A DNA stretch of 64,000 nt. Source: Thermoanaerobacter wiegelii Rt8.B1. GTDB lineage: Bacteria > Bacillota > Thermoanaerobacteria > Thermoanaerobacterales > Thermoanaerobacteraceae. Positions within the stretch are counted from its first letter, which is position 1, and every line of letters begins with the position of its first letter. Where the stretch lies: assembly GCF_000147695.2 (NCBI RefSeq), contig NC_015958.1, positions 1,094,501-1,158,500 on the forward strand. The letters are read 5' to 3'. Under the pieces are notes generated by a model that was not told the origin of the DNA, ran no database searches, and saw only the letters and a list, made by a program, of their open reading frames with translations. Below are positions 8,502 through 48,788 of this stretch, in pieces. Both the position numbers and the translations under genes were made by a program.

Positions 8502-8854
8502 GGGGGTGTACTGGTTTCGACGGGGGCAGTCGAGGTAAAAGTAGCGAGCCGAGTTGTCCGCCAGCTCGTAAAAACGGTGGAGTAAAAATAAACGCAGACA
8601 GAGAATTAGCTTACGCTGCCTAATTTAAGGTAGCCGTCCAACCTGAAATGCCCACGTTTCAGGATTGGGCGTCAAAAGAGTGGGGAACTGGTTTTGCTCA
8701 GGCTTCGGGGCAAAACCGGAACTTATGAAGCTACCGAGGCGGTTATCCTGTCGCTGGGAGAACCGCTGAGGGAAAGTTAAAACAGCGACTGCGCTCGGAG
8801 AAGCTTTTACTGTGACGCCTTCGGACCGGGGTTCGACTCCCCGCACCTCCACCA
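8502..8854 (+). ncRNA. ssrA: Transfer-messenger RNA (tmRNA)
   Basis: The 5' end GGGGGTG pairs with CACCTCC before the encoded ACCA end. The conserved start GGTTTCGACGGGGG and the 3' T-arm GGTTCGACTCCCC are present. The tag frame runs from the resume codon GCA at 8594 to TAA at 8621-8623 and encodes ADRELAYAA, ending in the usual AA degradation signal. GC-rich paired segments between 8630 and 8800 are the pseudoknots. Length 353 nt is typical. Confidence 0.97.
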
Positions 8855-8865
8855 AAAATAAATAT

Positions 8866-8941
8866 GGGGCTGTAGCTCAGTTGGGAGAGCGCCACAATGG
8901 CATTGTGGAAGTCGTGGGTTCAAGTCCCATCAGCTCCACCA
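8866..8941 (+). tRNA. tRNA-Ala (anticodon GGC)
   Basis: 76 nt with encoded CCA. Acceptor GGGGCTG/CAGCTCC, D-arm GCTCAGTTGGGAGAGC, anticodon stem CCACA/TGTGG with loop ATGGCAT, and T-loop TTCAAGT all fold normally. It starts 11 bases after tmRNA and is likely processed from the same transcript. Confidence 0.95.
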
Positions 8942-16574: not shown

Positions 16575-16996
16575 ACGTGCGCCCGGCATGGGCGATAACT
16601 AGGCGGTGAAAGTCCGCTGTGGGCTTGGTAGTGGGAACCACTAGCCAAGAGCAAGGGTGTCCATCGTGAGGTGGAATCTGAAGGAAGCTTAAGGCAAAAT
16701 CTCGGTCTGATGAACAAGAACCAGATAAGAGGCTGAATTGGGATGGATGAGTTTGCGTAACAAAACGAAGTCCAACACTACCCGAATCCCATACAGTAAA
16801 TCTGGCAGATATATGAGATGAAAGTTATCGTTCTTACCCGGGGAGGTCTCAAGGATAAGTCATGGAAGTAAAATCTGAAGTGACAACCCATGCAGTGATG
16901 TATGGCTGAACCTTGAGAAGTCAGCAGAGGTCATAGTACTTATCTAGACATGAATAGATAAGGAAGGACCGAACGTTAGGAGGTTTTGGAAATCTT

Positions 16997-17468
16997 ATGG
17001 ACTCGAAAGATATGCGAAGACTGCAGACAACTCAACAAAGAGGCTATCCGTTGAATAGAGAAATGGAATTTCAAAAGACAACGGAAGTGCATAGTATATC
17101 ATCGGCGTCGGAAGATGGAAGAAACGAAGTACAAAGATATACCGGCAAGATGCTTGAAATGATAGTAGAACGAGGGAACATGGAAGCAGCATACAAGCGC
17201 GTTGTTGCAAATAAAGGAAGCCATGGAGTCGATGGGATGGGAGTAGATGAACTTCTACCGTATCTCAAAGAAAACTGGGCAACCATAAAACAACAACTGC
17301 TGGAGGGGAAATACAAACCACAACCAGTGCGAAGAGTAGAAATTCCCAAACCTGATGGAGGAAAAAGACTACTAGGAATACCTACAGTACTAGACAGACT
17401 AATACAACAAGCAATAGCCCAAATACTAAATAAAGTCTACAACCATACATTTTCTGATAGCAGTTATG
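16997..17468 (+). pseudogene. ltrA: Group II intron reverse transcriptase/maturase, 5' part
   Basis: Encodes the first 157 residues of a group IIC maturase: KRVVANKGSHGVDGM (RT0/RT1) and PVRRVEIPKPDGGKRLLGIP (RT1). Reading continues 18 codons into the transposon as unrelated residues and stops. Joining this part to 20679-21619 across the insert restores an unbroken 470-residue frame through SDSSYGFRPGRSA, proving that the transposon arrived after the intron. Confidence 0.93.
17463..17468. repeat. Target-site duplication, left copy
   Basis: GTTATG, repeated at 20673-20678 on the other side of the transposon. One copy exists in the reconstructed maturase frame. Confidence 0.9.
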
Positions 17469-17486
17469 TGTCATTTCTCAAATTAA
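17469..17486. repeat. Transposon left terminal inverted repeat
   Basis: 18 bp, 17 of 18 matching the right end. It extends as TTTCTCAAATTAATTCAGCC, which is matched by the internal right-end repeat at 20581-20600 with two differences. Confidence 0.92.
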
Positions 17487-17533
17487 TTCAGCCCAAAACC
17501 GATAAAATTTTTCAGATTAAATAATCTTGTGAT

Positions 17534-17592
17534 AAAATTAATGCTAAAGGAATGTGAAAAAAATTCATCACATTCTTTTAGCATTAATTTTT
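17534..17592 (+). terminator. Long hairpin inside the transposon left end
   Basis: AAAATTAATGCTAAA...GAATGTGA pairs with TCACATTC...TTTAGCATTAATTTT (over 20 bp with a small bulge) and is followed by TTTTT. It sits between the end and the first gene. It is placed to stop transcripts entering from outside (here from the intron RNA), a device known from IS10-type elements; that role is inferred. Confidence 0.7.
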
Positions 17593-17610
17593 AATTGGAG
17601 ATGTTGTTTT

Positions 17611-18192
17611 ATGCAAATAATTTTTCATGTTGATAACATTGAAGAATATTTGCAAAGAAGTAAAGATTACAATTTTCCTGACCCACCAGACAGATGCCCT
17701 CATTCTGACTGCAAGTGCAGAGTAAAACTAAAAAAGCACGGTTTTTACTACCGTTACTATTTAGATGGACCTAACTGTGTAAAAATAGCCATAAGAAGGT
17801 ATATATGCCCTGTGTGCAAAAGGACTCTTTCCTACCTCCCTGATTTCTGTATTCCTCATTTTCAGTATTCTTTCAATATGATTGTAAAGTCTTTAAAAGA
17901 GACACTTACAAGAGAAAAAACTCTCAGTTCTTTCATAAATGACTTAAAAAGAAACTTCCCTACCATACTATTTTCAAGACAGCATATATATTTTTACACC
18001 AAAAGGATAATGAATAATTTAAGTTTTATCATATATGGATTAAGGCAAATAGACCCTTACATAAAGTTATTCGAGGTTAGTTCTCAAAGAGAGAGGGCCA
18101 GAGAGATTTTGGACATAATAAACATTGTACCACTCTTTTCCCAACGGTTTTATGCTCATTGCCAAAAATCATTTCTGGCCCCTCTCACATAA
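17611..18192 (+). CDS. DUF6431-like zinc-binding transposon protein
   Basis: 193-aa protein, first gene of the transposon. The N-terminal half holds two Cys pairs, C29-x4-C34 with C36 (RCPHSDCKC) and C66-x2-C69 (YICPVCKRT), typical of a zinc ribbon, and then LPDFCIPHFQYS. The C-terminal half is helical and basic. It resembles the DUF6431 family found beside DDE transposases and ExeA-like ATPases in clostridia; its biochemical role is not known. DNA-end binding or target choice are possible. The ATG at 17611 follows GGAG; an upstream in-frame ATG lies inside the hairpin and is not used here. Confidence 0.75.
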   Translation: MQIIFHVDNIEEYLQRSKDYNFPDPPDRCPHSDCKCRVKLKKHGFYYRYYLDGPNCVKIAIRRYICPVCKRTLSYLPDFCIPHFQYSFNMIVKSLKETLTREKTLSSFINDLKRNFPTILFSRQHIYFYTKRIMNNLSFIIYGLRQIDPYIKLFEVSSQRERAREILDIINIVPLFSQRFYAHCQKSFLAPLT

Positions 18193-18328
18193 TTTTAGCA
18201 TTAAACATGAAAGATTTAAATAAAAATTTTGATTTTTTCTTAGCAACATAGCTTTTTCCTTTAATGTCTCCCAGATATGAGCTAAAATTACGATTAAGAA
18301 ATCAAAAAAGTGAAGGGGGAACATATAA

Positions 18329-19642
18329 ATGCTTGATGAAAAAGCGAGAGAAGCTATAGCATTAAAGAGATTTTCACTGATAAGTCCGGTGTTAAACGGA
18401 CAGGTAAAAAATCAGAAAGAATATTTTGATGCTCTTTCCGATAAACCTATTGAGATACCTTATCTTGGAATGAGAAGATATACTCCTAAGACACTTAGAG
18501 GGTGGCTGTATCAGTATTTAAGAGGTGGTATAGAAGCGTTAAAGCCGGGTTATCGAAGTGACAGAGGCAAATACAGAAAGATAGACTTTGAACTTTCAGA
18601 GAGAATAAAGCAAAAGAAGCTTGAACATCCTGAAATGCCCAACAAACTTCTTTATGAGACATTGATAGGAGAAGGAATAATATCACCGAATAAAGTATCC
18701 CTTTCGACATTCTATAGGTTTTTGAAAAACATTCCTGTAAAATCTCTAGATAAAGAAAAAGAGGGTAAAACAAAGAGATTTTCCCATGAATACATCAATG
18801 AACTGTGGCAAACTGATGTCATGTATGGGCCATATATTAAAGAAGGTAAAACAAAAAGACAAACGTACCTTATTGCATATATAGATGATGCTTCAAGGCT
18901 TTGTACCTATGCTCGCTTTTACTATACCCAGAATTTTTTAGCTTTAAGAGACTCATTTAAAGAGGCGGTGCTAAGAAGGGGGATACCCAAAATGCTTTAC
19001 ACTGACAACGGAAAGATATATAGAAGCACTCAATTGGAATATATCTGTGCTTCACTAGGCACATCTCTTATTCACGCTGAGCCTTTTTCACCTCATTCAA
19101 AAGGAAAAATAGAAAGATTCTTTCATACGGTGAGAATGAGATTCTTAAGCACAATAGATCCTACCTCCGTAAAGAGTATAGATGAACTCAACATGATGTT
19201 TTTTAAATGGCTGGAGGAAGATTACAACAGAAAAGAACACAGCAGTATTGGCATGAGTCCTTTAGATTTTTTCATGTCACAAATATCAAGAATAAATATG
19301 TGTAACATAGATATGTTGAATGAATGTTTTCTCATAAGAGTAAATCGTAAGGTAAATAAGGATGCTACACTTAAAGTGGAAAATATACTTTATGAAACAG
19401 AAGAAAAGTTTAAAAATATGCACTTAGAAGTCAGATATGACCCTGAGTGGCTTTAGGATAATACACCGCTTCTACTTTATTATGAGGGCAAAAAAGTGGG
19501 GGAAGCGTATAAAGTGAACTTTCATGAGAATGCTAAAATTCCTGCTGCGTATATAAAAGGCAAAAATGACGTAAACGAAAATGAAGAAATAAGTGATTTT
19601 ACCAAGCATAAAGTAATCTCTTTTAACGATATCATTGATTGA
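18329..19642 (+). pseudogene. DD35E transposase (Mu/TnsB-like) with in-frame amber codon
   Basis: Integrase-core transposase. Residues 1-135 carry helix-turn-helix DNA-binding regions; the catalytic triad is D163 (WQTDVMYG), D226 (YTDNGK) and E262 (SKGKIERFF), giving DD35E spacing. Codon 376 is TAG (19454-19456). The same frame continues for 61 more sensible codons (NTPLLLYYEGKKVGEAYKV) to TGA at 19640, forming the small C-terminal barrel typical of this family, so the gene is 437 codons with a nonsense mutation. The truncated 375-aa product keeps the catalytic core but loses the tail. GGGGG ribosome site 10 bases upstream. Confidence 0.88.
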
Positions 19643-19659
19643 AAGAGAGGTGCCTTAAA

Positions 19660-20460
19660 GTGTTTACCCAATATTTTGGAATGAAATTTAATCCATTTTC
19701 TAAAGAGATAAGTGTAAACGACCTTTACATAAGTGAAGACATTGCTGAATTAAATGCCAGGTTAAAATATTTACAAGAAACAAGGGGTATAGGACTTATC
19801 GTTGGGGAGGCCGGTTCAGGTAAATCTACTGCATTAAGAAGATATGCTGAAAGCCTCAACCGTTCTACATTTAAACCATGTTATTTCGCTTTATCTACAC
19901 TTACAGTGAGAGAATTCTATCAAGCATTGGCTATGATTTTAGGCGAAACACCCTCATACAAAAAAGTAACGCTCTTTTACCAGATACAAAGAGCGATAAC
20001 AGAACTTTACTATAGCCAGAAAATAACTCCTGTCATAATATTAGATGAAATACAACTGGTTTCTAATGATGTTCTTGAAGATTTGAGAATAATATTTAAC
20101 TTTAATACGGATTCTCAAAACCCGTATATATTGATACTTTCAGGACAACCACACATAAGAAACAAACTAGCTCTCAATGTAAACAGTGCACTAAGGCAAA
20201 GAATTTCTATAAAGTATGTGATGCAAGGGCTAAAAAAAGAAGAAATTCAAGATTATAAAAAAACAAGAATGAAAATAGCCGGAATGATGGATGATATATT
20301 TACACCATCAGCATATGAAGCAATATATTCCCTAACAAAAGGGCTCCCAAGGATAATAAATAACCTGGTAACAGCTTCTTTACTCTATGCGTATTCTAAA
20401 AGGCTAAGAGAAATAGACGAAGAAGTAATATACCAGGCACAAAATGAAATCAGTTTATGA
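19660..20460 (+). CDS. ExeA/TnsC-like AAA+ ATPase of the transposon
   Basis: 266-aa AAA+ ATPase. It begins with the ExeA-type signature MFTQYFGMKFNPFSKEI. Walker A GEAGSGKST (49-57), Walker B IILDE (126-130), sensor region ILSGQPHIRNKL. Homologues in Tn7, Tn5053, Tn552 and IS21 choose target DNA and activate the DDE transposase. GTG at 19660 is chosen because GAGAGGTG lies 8 bases before it and the family start fits; a TTG at 19639 overlaps the transposase stop. It ends 4 bases before a hairpin terminator. Confidence 0.9.
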   Translation: MFTQYFGMKFNPFSKEISVNDLYISEDIAELNARLKYLQETRGIGLIVGEAGSGKSTALRRYAESLNRSTFKPCYFALSTLTVREFYQALAMILGETPSYKKVTLFYQIQRAITELYYSQKITPVIILDEIQLVSNDVLEDLRIIFNFNTDSQNPYILILSGQPHIRNKLALNVNSALRQRISIKYVMQGLKKEEIQDYKKTRMKIAGMMDDIFTPSAYEAIYSLTKGLPRIINNLVTASLLYAYSKRLREIDEEVIYQAQNEISL

Positions 20461-20500
20461 GAGTAGCACTTTTTGTGTTACTCTCAATTTTATTATATAT
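20461..20500 (+). terminator. Terminator of the transposon genes
   Basis: GAGTAGCAC and GTGTTACTC form a stem (one G-T pair) followed by TCAATTTTATT. Confidence 0.7.
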
Positions 20501-20580
20501 TAATTAAATAAAATTTCAATAACAGATATTAACATATTTTGGCGGTAATGCTCTTGGAAAGTGAAAAAAATTTTTAATCA

Positions 20581-20600
20581 GGCTGTAATAATTTGAGAAA
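20581..20600. repeat. Internal right-end transposase-binding repeat
   Basis: On the minus strand it reads TTTCTCAAATTATTACAGCC, matching the left end at 17474-17493 at 18 of 20 positions. A weaker copy lies near 20629-20645 (minus strand TTTTCAAATTATAAT). Confidence 0.75.
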
Positions 20601-20654
20601 AAATACTTTTATGCACTTAAAAAATGCCATTATAATTTGAAAATCTTTGGAGAT

Positions 20655-20672
20655 TTAATTTGAGAATTGACA
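20655..20672. repeat. Transposon right terminal inverted repeat
   Basis: 18 bp ending in TGACA, the inverse of the left end with one mismatch. Confidence 0.92.
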
Positions 20673-20678
20673 GTTATG
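20673..20678. repeat. Target-site duplication, right copy
   Basis: GTTATG, identical to 17463-17468. Confidence 0.9.
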
Positions 20679-21619
20679 GATTCAGACCAGGACGCAGTGC
20701 AAAAGACGCAATAAAAGCCGCAGAAGCATACATAAATGAAGGATACACATGGGTTGTAGATATGGACTTAGAAAAGTTCTTTGACAGAGTAAACCACGAC
20801 ATAATAATGTCCAAACTAGAAAAGCGGATAGGAGATAAAAGGGTACTAAAGTTAATACGAAGATACCTAGAATCAGGAGTAATGATAAACGGAATCAAAG
20901 TATCAACAGAAGAAGGGACACCCCAAGGAGGGCCATTAAGTCCCCTATTAGCAAACATAATGTTGGACGAACTAGACAAAGAACTTGAGAAACGAGGGCA
21001 TAAATTCTGCCGATATGCAGATGACTGCAACATATATGTAAAAAGCAGGTCTGCAGGAAACAGAGTAATGAAGAGCATAAAGAAATTCATAGAAAGCAAA
21101 TTAAAACTAAAAGTCAACGAAGCAAAAAGTGCTGTAGATAGACCATGGAGAAGAAAATTTCTTGGATTTTCATTCTATACAAAAGAAAACGAAGTAAGAA
21201 TAAGAATCCATGAAAAATCCATCAAAAGGTTTAAGGAAAAAGTAAGAGAAATAACCAATCGGAACAAGGGAATAAGCATGGAAAACAGAATAAAAAGACT
21301 AAATCAAATAACAACAGGATGGGTCAACTATTTTGGATTAGCAGACGCGAAAAGCATAATGAAAACCCTTGACGAATGGATAAGGCGAAGACTAAGGGCA
21401 TGTATATGGAAACAATGGAAGAAGATAAAAACGAAGCATGATAACTTAGTAAAACTAGGAGTAGAAGAACAAAAAGCCTGGGAATACGCCAATACAAGGA
21501 AAGGCTACTGGAGAATATCCAATAGCCCAATCCTAAATAAGACTCTTACAAATAAATACTTTGAAAGCATAGGTTATAAGAGTTTATCCCAAAGATATCT
21601 AATTGTACACAATTCCTAA
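20679..21619 (+). pseudogene. ltrA: Group II intron reverse transcriptase/maturase, 3' part
   Basis: Residues 158-470 of the maturase: GFRPGRSA, MDLEKFFDRVNHD, EGTPQGGPLSPLLANI (RT4) and the catalytic FCRYADDCNIYV (RT5), then the thumb and domain X (GWVNYFGLADAKSIM). There is no HNH endonuclease domain, as normal for class IIC. An in-frame AGAATT... stretch from the transposon end precedes it, but no start codon with a ribosome site, so it is unlikely to be made alone. Confidence 0.93.
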
Positions 21620-21689
21620 TGAACCGCCGTATACCGAACGGTACGTACGGTGGTGTGAGAGGACGCTGAATAAAATAATTATTCAGCTC

Positions 21690-22922
21690 CTACTCGATAT
21701 TTGCCTTTTCTACTAATTTAATTCTATGCATTGTAGAAGGATGAGAATAAGAAAACCATTCTATAAAAGGCGGCGGAGCTACATCCAATAAACTTTTTTT
21801 AGCAAGGTCAATCTGAAGTTTTATTACAGGTTTTTTGTCGTGAAGGTACTCTACAGATAGTAAATCTGCTTGTTTTTCCATCTGCCTTGATATGTAATTT
21901 TGTATTGGAGTTGTGTCAAAATTTATAAGTAGTATAAACAAATATATCATCGCTAAAACTGCAGGAGTCATTCTTTTACCATAAGGGAGAAATAGGCTTG
22001 AGTGAATTAAAATATTAAGAAAATAAAGGCCTATTACAAGTCCTACTATGCCTATTAACATACTTTTTAATACGTGATTTTCTTTCCAATGACCTGCTTC
22101 ATGAGCTATAACTGCCTTTATTTCATCCTCTGGATAATTTTTTAATAATGTATCATATAATACAATCCTACTTGTCTTTCCAAATCCATAAAAGTAGGCA
22201 TTGGCAAGAGTAGTCCTTTTACTTGCATCCATTTCTTGAATCTTATCTATTTTTATTCCCGCATTTTTTGATATTTCCTTTACCATGTTTATTATTTTTT
22301 GGTCTTTGATTGGGGTGAATTTATTAAATAAAGGTGCTATAAAAGTAGGATAGACGTAAATTTGCACAAACATAATTATCGTCAAAAAGACTGCAGCACT
22401 TACCCACCAGTTATTAGGCCATTTATTTAGAGCCACAAATAAGAGCAATACTCCCATTGACGAAAAAACAAAGTCTAAAGCCGCACTTTTAAAATAATCA
22501 CTCCACCAAGAAGCCATTGTCTGTACAGAGAAACCCCATTCAACTTGAACAGAATGGCTTAAAAGGCTAAAGGGTAGAGATATTAACCTTAAAATTACCC
22601 ATAAGGCAATAAAATATAAAAAGACATTCACATAGTATTTACCTGAAGCTAATTTTTCGGTATAGTATGAAAGCTTGATAGCATTATTCCCAAATACAAG
22701 CCATAACAAAAAAGCTGCTTTTGTCAAAAAAGAAGTTATGTAAATCAATCGATTTATTTTGTGATACTTTTGCGCTTTTGATATTTCTGCAGGGGAAAAA
22801 TATTTGTAGACTTCATGAGGTATATTTCCTGGAAATAATGTATAATAAAGGTATAAAACAGAAAATATTGTGGCAATTAATATAAGTATCAGCCACAATT
22901 TATTGAATTTTATAAAAGCCAT
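21690..22922 (-). CDS. M48-family (Ste24-like) membrane metalloprotease
   Basis: 410-aa integral membrane zinc protease of the CAAX-protease-1 type. About seven hydrophobic helices; the zinc motif is HEAGH (in VIAHEAGHWKENH, near 265) with the third ligand Glu in MEKQADLLSVEYL. In bacteria the role is probably membrane-protein quality control rather than prenyl-protein processing. ATG at 22922 has GAAAGGA 9 bases upstream; a GTG at 22940 is in frame but overlaps that site. The C-terminus reads VEKANIE and its TAG (21690-21692) falls in the last bases of the group II intron, so the natural end may have been altered. Confidence 0.92.
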   Translation of the reverse strand: MAFIKFNKLWLILILIATIFSVLYLYYTLFPGNIPHEVYKYFSPAEISKAQKYHKINRLIYITSFLTKAAFLLWLVFGNNAIKLSYYTEKLASGKYYVNVFLYFIALWVILRLISLPFSLLSHSVQVEWGFSVQTMASWWSDYFKSAALDFVFSSMGVLLLFVALNKWPNNWWVSAAVFLTIIMFVQIYVYPTFIAPLFNKFTPIKDQKIINMVKEISKNAGIKIDKIQEMDASKRTTLANAYFYGFGKTSRIVLYDTLLKNYPEDEIKAVIAHEAGHWKENHVLKSMLIGIVGLVIGLYFLNILIHSSLFLPYGKRMTPAVLAMIYLFILLINFDTTPIQNYISRQMEKQADLLSVEYLHDKKPVIKLQIDLAKKSLLDVAPPPFIEWFSYSHPSTMHRIKLVEKANIE

Positions 22923-28354: not shown

Positions 28355-28623
28355 ATGGTGATGGAAGGGACTTTTTCGTTTATTGTTGCTATTTTAATAT
28401 TAGTTTTTATTTTATGGCTTTTAGGTAAATCTCTAAGGTTGATGGTAAAGTTTGTATTAAATGCTTTAGTGGGTTTTGTGATGCTTTTGTTTTTTAATTT
28501 TTTGGTGTTCTATTTGGGGTTTACTTGCCTGTCAATATAATTACTTCATTTATTACAGGAGTTTTTGGAATAGCAGGTATAGCAATTTTGCTGATTCTTA
28601 AATATTTATTCCATGTCATATAG
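28355..28623 (+). pseudogene. bofA: BofA-family sporulation protein, frameshifted
   Basis: Small membrane protein of the pro-sigma-K processing inhibitor family. The first frame gives two hydrophobic helices and stops at 28540. In the next frame the sequence continues GVLFGVYLPVNIITSFITG and GIAGIAILLILKYLF to TAG at 28621, the conserved C-terminal half of BofA. One extra T in the six-T run at 28498-28503 restores about 89 residues. GAGAGGTGA lies upstream of two nearby ATGs (28355, 28361). BofA restrains the SpoIVFB protease in the forespore membrane of Bacillus. Confidence 0.8.
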
Positions 28624-28931
28624 GTTCCTTTTTAGGAACTTTCAGTTTGCTGACAAAGTTAAAAAATTTTTCAAAGGAGATATTTTGCATCGTCGCTCCG
28701 ATGTTCCAAAGCGACAAAACTAAAGCTCGACCTTCAGGCTCCGGCAGGGTACCGGGCACAATCGGCATCCATGCCTTAAGGTGCCCGCCTTCGCCATCCG
28801 TGGCTTCGGCCCTGCCTACGCCCTCGGTCTTGCTAAGTTTTGTTATCGCTTTGTAACAAGTCACTCCTTATGCAAAATATCTCCTTTACGAAAGTTTGTC
28901 TACAGTCTGTAGGTTCCTTTTTAGGAACTTT
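28621..28931. repeat. GC-rich hairpin element flanked by 22-bp direct repeats
   Basis: A 267-bp insert (28643-28909) lies between two identical 22-bp copies of a terminator (28621-28642 and 28910-28931; stem GTTCC/GGAAC). Its arms are long imperfect inverted repeats: AAAGGAGATATTTTGCAT at 28673-28690 is perfectly inverted at 28870-28887, and CAAAGCGA and CAAAACT are inverted further in. Inner arms are nested: GGCAGGG/CCCTGCC and CGGGCAC/GTGCCCG. The core is about 60% G+C against about 33% around it. It looks like a MITE or a structured RNA element. Reading frames inside it on both strands are by-products of the GC content. Confidence 0.75.
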
Positions 28932-47857: not shown

Positions 47858-47865
47858 TTAGTTAA

Positions 47866-47980
47866 AAAAGATGCCGAATCCCCGATAAGGGGTACGGGGG
47901 AACTAAATTGGGGTGAATCCACATTTGTGGTAGGGTGGCCCTAACCCGAACCCGTCAACTAACCTCGGAGGCAAAAGGGG
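47866..47980 (+). ncRNA. ydaO/yuaA cyclic di-AMP riboswitch
   Basis: Conserved blocks in order: GCCGAATCCCC, GGGTACGGGGGAA, TTGGGGTGAATCC, GTAGGG, CCGAACCCGTCA and CTAACCTCGGAGGC, which is the ydaO consensus. The closing stem pairs TGCC (47872) with GGCA (47970). In this class c-di-AMP turns expression off, usually of wall-remodelling or osmotic genes. The ribosome site AAAGGGGG follows directly. No separate terminator is seen, so control may be partly at translation. Confidence 0.93.
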
Positions 47981-47987
47981 GAACAAC

Positions 47988-48788
47988 ATGTTTAATATTC
48001 ACATCAAAGTCAAACCTCTCATCGCATCAGTTATAGCCGGATTGTTTATTTCCCAATCAATATTTGCTGCAACTTACACAGTTAAACCCGGCGATACCTT
48101 ATGGGGCATAAGTCAAAAATACGGGACTACCTATACTAAGCTGATGTCTTTAAACGGCCTTCAAAGTACCATAATATATCCAGGGCAAGTTTTACAAGTG
48201 CCGGGTAGTGATAACACATATGTTGTTCAGAAAGGTGACAGCTTGTACTTAATTGCTTTAAAATATGGAATTACTGTTGATATGCTTAAATCTGCAAACG
48301 GATACAAAAGCGACATAATATATCCTGGACAAGTCTTTATTATACCAAATGCTTCTTCTAATAGAACATATCAAGATGTCAGCAGAGGCTCTATTGAAAG
48401 AGGCGTAATACCCTACACAAAAGAGGAATTTGACCTCCTTGCGCGACTAGTCACAGCAGAAGCAGATGGTGAACCTTATAAGGCAAAAGTAGCAGTTGCA
48501 GCTGTAGTAATAAACAGGGTTAAAAGTGGCATTTTTCCTAACACTATAAAAGACGTAATATACCAAGTTGATGATTACGGTAACTACCAATTTACTCCTG
48601 TACTAAATGGCTGGATAAACAGACCTGCTTCAGCTGATGCTATAAGTGCAGCAAGAGATGCGTTAAGTGGTGTTGACCCAACAAACGGAGCCTTGTATTA
48701 TTTTGACCAGAGTTCTACAAATGCGTGGCTGTGGTCACTACCTATAGCGGCAAGAATAGGTAATATGGTTTTTTGTTACGGCAGGTAA
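47988..48788 (+). CDS. LysM-SleB cell-wall hydrolase
   Basis: 266-aa exported protein. Signal peptide 1-27 (ends SIFA-A); two LysM repeats ([17 protein letters not shown] and [17 protein letters not shown], about 29-115) bind peptidoglycan; a C-terminal SleB/hydrolase_2 domain (about 145-266: [20 protein letters not shown]) is a lytic transglycosylase-like enzyme (catalytic Glu in TAEADGE). Related to spore cortex and wall hydrolases. The c-di-AMP riboswitch upstream links its synthesis to wall or osmotic stress. Confidence 0.94.

Follow-up and report, generated by a model that had tools for sequence, protein, structure and literature searches.

We report that a 267-bp palindromic sequence downstream of bofA in Thermoanaerobacter wiegelii Rt8.B1, within the 64,000-nucleotide stretch of DNA analysed here (the window), is with high confidence a non-autonomous IS1182-family MITE, which targets and duplicates terminator stem-loops and carries a conserved, divergent TwoAYGGAY RNA. 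The orphan Rfam RNA TwoAYGGAY gains a genomic identity in this way, i.e. it is largely the body of mobile elements, and the empty sites in related genomes provide natural evidence for transposition by stem-loop duplication, only replacement being documented for the IS1182 family in the papers accessible to us. If, moreover, the link to CsrA considered at the end is true, a transposon is distributing binding sites for a global post-transcriptional regulator among the 3' ends of genes.

Structure of the element downstream of bofA

A 22-bp terminator hairpin, TAGGTTCCTTTTTAGGAACTTT, is present in two identical copies, at positions 28621-28642 (the terminator stem-loop of the bofA transcript) and 28910-28931 of the window, and between them are 267 bp (28643-28909). 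Within this sequence, two perfect 18-bp arms of an outer hairpin (28673-28690 and 28870-28887) are nested in a larger arm pair of 28 nt with 86% complementarity, in keeping with the original prediction of a long inverted-repeat element with an 18-bp arm inside a duplicated 22-bp terminator. Its figure of about 60% G+C agrees with the middle only (66% in the centre and 56% in the RNA core, see below) and is too high for the entire element, which has 48%; the value for the whole window is 34%. The element starts with CAGTTTGCTGACAAA (28643-28657, plus strand) and ends with an inverted CAGACTGTAGACAAA (28895-28909, minus strand), which match the terminal inverted repeat (TIR) pattern given below with one mismatch and exactly, respectively, and it has no gene-like ORF of its own. 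The RNA fold of the stretch has a predicted energy of -128.9 kcal/mol compared to -74.9 +/- 5.1 for shuffled sequences (z = -10.6), and the nested inner arms are parts of a branched RNA encoded on the minus strand.

The bofA gene itself (28355-28620) is apparently frameshifted, by a true mutation or a sequencing error; its ORF ends at 61 amino acids, and a longer BofA, which continues to ...LLILKYLFHVI/HAI, is present in four congeners.

Multiple copies, duplicated stem-loops and empty sites

BLAST searches of the window's genome (2.79 Mb, one contig) gave 47 matches at approximately 40 loci, and between 12 and 36 matches were detected in each of eight congeners, i.e. the sequence is not a single-copy one. 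In nearly all extracted genome copies a complete terminator stem-loop stands before the element and is repeated after it. Specifically, flanking repeats were identified for 21 of the 22 copies with both ends defined (alignment scores 12-27, lengths 13-32 bp), and for these 21 copies nearly all of the repeats are stem-loops or parts of stem-loops. As a control, the left flank of one copy was paired with the right flank of another, and only one of 462 such mispairs reached a score of 12. Since the length of the duplication varies with the stem-loop that was hit, it is not fixed but corresponds to the length of the target stem-loop. The original prediction was right to regard 22 bp as unusual for a transposase with a fixed stagger.

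For six copies we joined the left flank, one hairpin and the right flank, and searched for the resulting predicted empty sites across the genus. Relatives contain all six as contiguous sequences. For the window site, a genome of the same species has the empty version (all 420 positions, 99%), as do four other congeners; the sequence reads ...CATATAGGTTCCTTTTTAGGAACTTTTTTG... with one hairpin only. Taken by itself the locus displays a pair of repeats and nothing else, and might in principle have arisen by chance if recombination doubled the terminator and a hairpin then evolved between the two copies. We consider such an origin vanishingly improbable given that the same 267-bp sequence lies within different duplicated terminators dozens of times and that relatives have the empty sites. 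Together, these data bear out a repeat inserted into a terminator.

The copies also include length variants. Four (L020, L022, L029 and L042) are approximately 327-335 bp long and have some 62 additional bases close to one arm, while one (L044) is 98 bp, with the ends kept and the RNA core deleted.

Ends shared with IS1182 elements

The TIR pattern CAGnYTGTnGACAAA has 79 matches in the genome compared to three for the reversed control, and it bounds both the MITE copies and four IS elements of approximately 2.23 kb in the same genome. All four encode an IS1182-family transposase (NCBIfam NF033551, 490.9 bits, cut-off 270) with DUF772 (PF05598) and DDE (PF13751) domains, and each lies between exact copies of a terminator hairpin, e.g. 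GCTGCTGAAACCTCAGCAGC. IS1182 copies bounded by the same ends also occur in a second bacterial family, where the hairpins duplicated on either side measure 25-31 bp. Hence, MITE and IS treat the target alike, both hitting and duplicating a stem-loop, and it is the shared ends together with this shared target behaviour that link the transposase to the MITE. On the basis of these sequence comparisons, the element is very probably moved by a DDE transposase of the IS1182 family. The suggestion that the element could be a MITE thus stands, as it is short, non-coding, present in multiple copies and has TIRs in common with autonomous IS1182 elements. Bacterial MITEs and palindromic repeats such as Correia, RUP, ERIC and REP are likewise short, non-coding and hairpin-forming, and they are mobilised in trans, as is predicted for the present element; unlike these, it targets a structure, duplicates a variable 13-32 bp and has within it an RNA module that is conserved and covaries.

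The original prediction had proposed retro-copying or recombination at terminators as the route of insertion, and a related alternative is that the element inserts downstream of terminators in the manner of a group II intron. Group IIC introns insert after terminators, and the window's genome has 24 copies of a group II intron, one of which is located in the window directly after a terminator hairpin. The element, however, has no linked reverse transcriptase, it is bounded by TIRs and by a full target duplication of a kind that intron insertion does not make, and its ends and target behaviour are those of an IS1182 DDE transposon. A retro-copying or intron-like origin is thus very improbable, and neither it nor recombination is needed as a route when IS1182 elements with the same ends and the same hairpin duplications are present in the same genome.

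The group II intron in the window covers positions ~16577-21699. An insertion divides its reverse-transcriptase ORF into two parts (16997-17524 and 20660-21619), and among the ORFs of this insertion are an integrase-type transposase and an AAA ATPase, both named by inspection of their translations. Moreover, a non-coding group II intron (RF02001, RF01998, RF00029) interrupts the left TIR in four IS1182 copies (L074/L076/L077/L078) and two MITE copies (L007/L015 and L018), with the junctions reading hairpin-TCAG(TTT/ACT)GT, then GTGCGCCC...CTACTCGAT, then TGACAAA. It seems that IS1182 insertion re-creates the hairpin-plus-spacer target of the intron, such that one mobile element nests inside the other.

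Duplication of the target and effect on neighbouring genes

The IS1182-family elements IS1272 and TnSha1 target palindromes and terminator hairpins regardless of sequence, and they delete or replace the stem-loop without leaving a duplication (PMC4923244, PMC5678879). Duplication of the stem-loop, referred to as "pathway b", is only a proposal made on paper for the IS1182 family (PMC5678879). The elements studied here resemble this family in that the partner IS in the same genome has a DUF772 and DDE transposase and in the targeting of hairpins. They differ from IS1272 and TnSha1, since the whole stem-loop is kept and doubled instead of being lost by replacement of the IS1272 type, and the MITE itself, unlike IS1182 members, has no transposase. 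The present elements look like a natural instance of "pathway b". In a possible mechanism, the IS1182 DDE transposase would act in trans on the CAGnYTGTnGACAAA ends of the MITE and attack the target hairpin as a cruciform, and gap repair would copy the hairpin on both sides, giving a duplication as long as the hairpin, i.e. approximately 13-32 bp. The outer hairpin copy would retain its T-run (A-run for the opposite strand), whereby termination would survive and the insertion would be nearly harmless.

In the window, the right-hand hairpin (28910-28931) does retain a T-run and is still a complete terminator for plus-strand transcripts, which means that bofA transcripts should still end there after read-through of the element; with this terminator retained, an insertion at the foot of the hairpin should be mild. 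The GGA strand of the RNA core (see below) is antisense to bofA. Among copies with unambiguous orientation the RNA strand is sense to the incoming gene in 15 and antisense in six (p = 0.08, not significant), and many copies are located between convergent genes. Given the antisense orientation here and the weak bias across copies, transcription of the RNA from host genes is not assured.

The RNA core and its strand

The minus strand of positions 28700-28860 matches the full-length Rfam model RF01731 (TwoAYGGAY) with 29.4 bits, which is below the gathering cut-off of 43, as is the best score in the window's genome (37.7). The cut-off is passed in other families by elements that have the same ends as the MITE, e.g. 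L168 with 51.8 and L152 with 61.2. TwoAYGGAY was described as a candidate structured RNA whose function is unknown (PMC2864571). The window core has the same branched layout, with two terminal AYGGAY-loop hairpins, AUGGAU (28767-28772, minus strand) and ACGGAU (28796-28801, minus strand), within a closed, covarying multibranch structure; it differs from TwoAYGGAY proper in that the window copy scores below the gathering cut-off. The structured RNA that the original prediction offered as an alternative to a MITE is therefore present, and the element is both a MITE and an RNA carrier. The RNA is not an undescribed one, as its core matches a named Rfam family, albeit under the curated score for the window copy.

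The covariance check among 26 genome copies revealed two-sided compensatory changes in 17 of the 40 predicted pairs, and the conservation of the inverted repeats is not lost. The predicted fold of the GGA strand is more stable than that of the complement in each of the 21 genome elements, probably due to purine-rich (tandem G-A) internal loops, which become C-U on the other strand. A strand test based on G-U versus A-C asymmetry gave no signal (80 vs 89 G-U pairs among the genome copies). Among 35 genome copies, conservation of GGA is 97-100% in both loops, as against 43-54% for the base that precedes it and a column mean of 83%. The compensatory changes, the strand-specific stability and the near-invariant GGA argue that the RNA matters, and that it does so on the GGA strand.

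An alternative is that the element is only a DNA palindrome, whose arms matter as a transposase substrate or as a hairpin at the replication fork, with the likeness to TwoAYGGAY as a by-product of shared ancestry. This would fit a mobile element that is palindromic throughout and has a near-random orientation relative to genes. It would not account for the preservation of GGA on the same strand in both loops while the preceding base varies, nor for the phylum-wide data, where fold stability is strand-specific in 32 of 34 genomes, GGA hairpins are found at 78 of 90 core loci on one strand and at one of 90 on the complement, and the same core is present in repeats with unrelated ends. We therefore regard the DNA-only explanation as unlikely and favour a MITE with a conserved RNA strand.

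As to other structured RNAs in the window, a tmRNA gene followed by a tRNA gene (8502-8938) and a c-di-AMP riboswitch (47862-47988) are ordinary.

TwoAYGGAY across the phylum

RF01731 was detected in 35 of 299 genomes of the phylum and is multicopy in most carriers; the copy counts per genome are lower bounds, as at most nine candidates were scored per genome in the first look. For further analysis 90 loci were fetched from 34 carrier genomes. At 21 of these, representing five families, both ends are IS1182-type TIRs (at most three mismatches), and most of these elements are 263-274 bp long. Twelve of the 21 have a flanking duplication with a score of at least 11 and up to 26; a search for exact repeats missed most of these duplications, and it was necessary to define the ends first and then compare the flanks. 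RF01731 itself is thus largely mobile, given its multiple copies in most carriers and the IS1182-type ends. Across the phylum, such MITEs maintain the RNA part as a module; it is not mere filler DNA.

In other carrier genomes the core is present inside repeats with quite different palindromic ends, e.g. CAAATATGTTGTGCC or TGTCATATAACATC (L110/L140 in G274, L115 in G212 and L128 in G019). One RNA core appears to have been joined to at least two kinds of end, and these sequences suggest that other transposases may move the same RNA core. No mention of mobility of TwoAYGGAY was found in the accessible parts of PMC2864571 and PMC4333381, and a search confined to open-access texts, seven of which name TwoAYGGAY, found no report of a link between this RNA and transposons.

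As is usual for an Rfam RNA family, TwoAYGGAY might instead be a fixed host sRNA gene that is located near terminators by happenstance, and several species of a sister genus do have a single copy at one intergenic site. Such an explanation is very improbable, considering the approximately 40 copies at different loci in the window genus, the empty sites in relatives and that most carriers across the phylum are multicopy; a largely mobile RNA agrees with all three. The single sister-genus copy has an S41-type peptidase gene on one side and a glycerate kinase gene on the other. It is present in opposite orientation in different species (L063, L064 and L067 vs L065 and L066) and is flanked by inverted GACAATTTTGA, an apparent in-place inversion.

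A possible link to CsrA

Both loops of the core read ANGGAN, in agreement with the ANGGA-in-a-hairpin-loop feature of CsrA-binding RNA, and the ANGGAN hexaloop is the site bound by the CsrA homologue RsmE (PMC7652899). TwoAYGGAY was proposed earlier, from motif matches, to be a CsrA-binding RNA (PMC4333381). The window's genome has csrA. Among the phylum genomes, csrA is present in 34 of 35 RF01731 carriers compared to 175 of 264 (66%) non-carriers (Fisher p = 4.6e-5; the genomes are related and not phylogenetically independent), and at the genus level the corresponding numbers are 27 of 28 and 123 of 186 (p = 6e-4). Two controls were examined; the IS1182 transposase shows no association with csrA (47/61, p = 0.21), and group II introns show a weak one (87/108 vs 122/191, p = 0.0025). 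Since group II introns are also csrA-associated, part of the csrA signal is background; the association of TwoAYGGAY exceeds that of the introns (p = 0.016). The co-occurrence supports a putative TwoAYGGAY-CsrA link, with motility as a plausible confounder, and we give even odds to the prediction that the two ANGGAN hairpin loops bind CsrA.

With ANGGAN at its hairpin tips and two predicted sites per RNA, which would suit the CsrA dimer (PMC7652899), the core resembles CsrA-sequestering RNAs of the CsrB/RsmY type. These are fixed genes with many GGA sites, whereas the present element is transposon-borne and scattered, and its binding is a prediction. The putative binding may serve the element or neighbouring transcripts, or it may act as a sponge for the host. 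A broader and more tentative proposal, to which we assign somewhat less than an even chance, is that TwoAYGGAY is a mobile CsrA-binding module carried by several unrelated terminator- or hairpin-associated MITEs in csrA-bearing bacteria, SINE-like with a regulatory-RNA body, which would seed sponge sites in 3' regions genome-wide and either tune the CsrA level of the host or serve the maintenance of the element.
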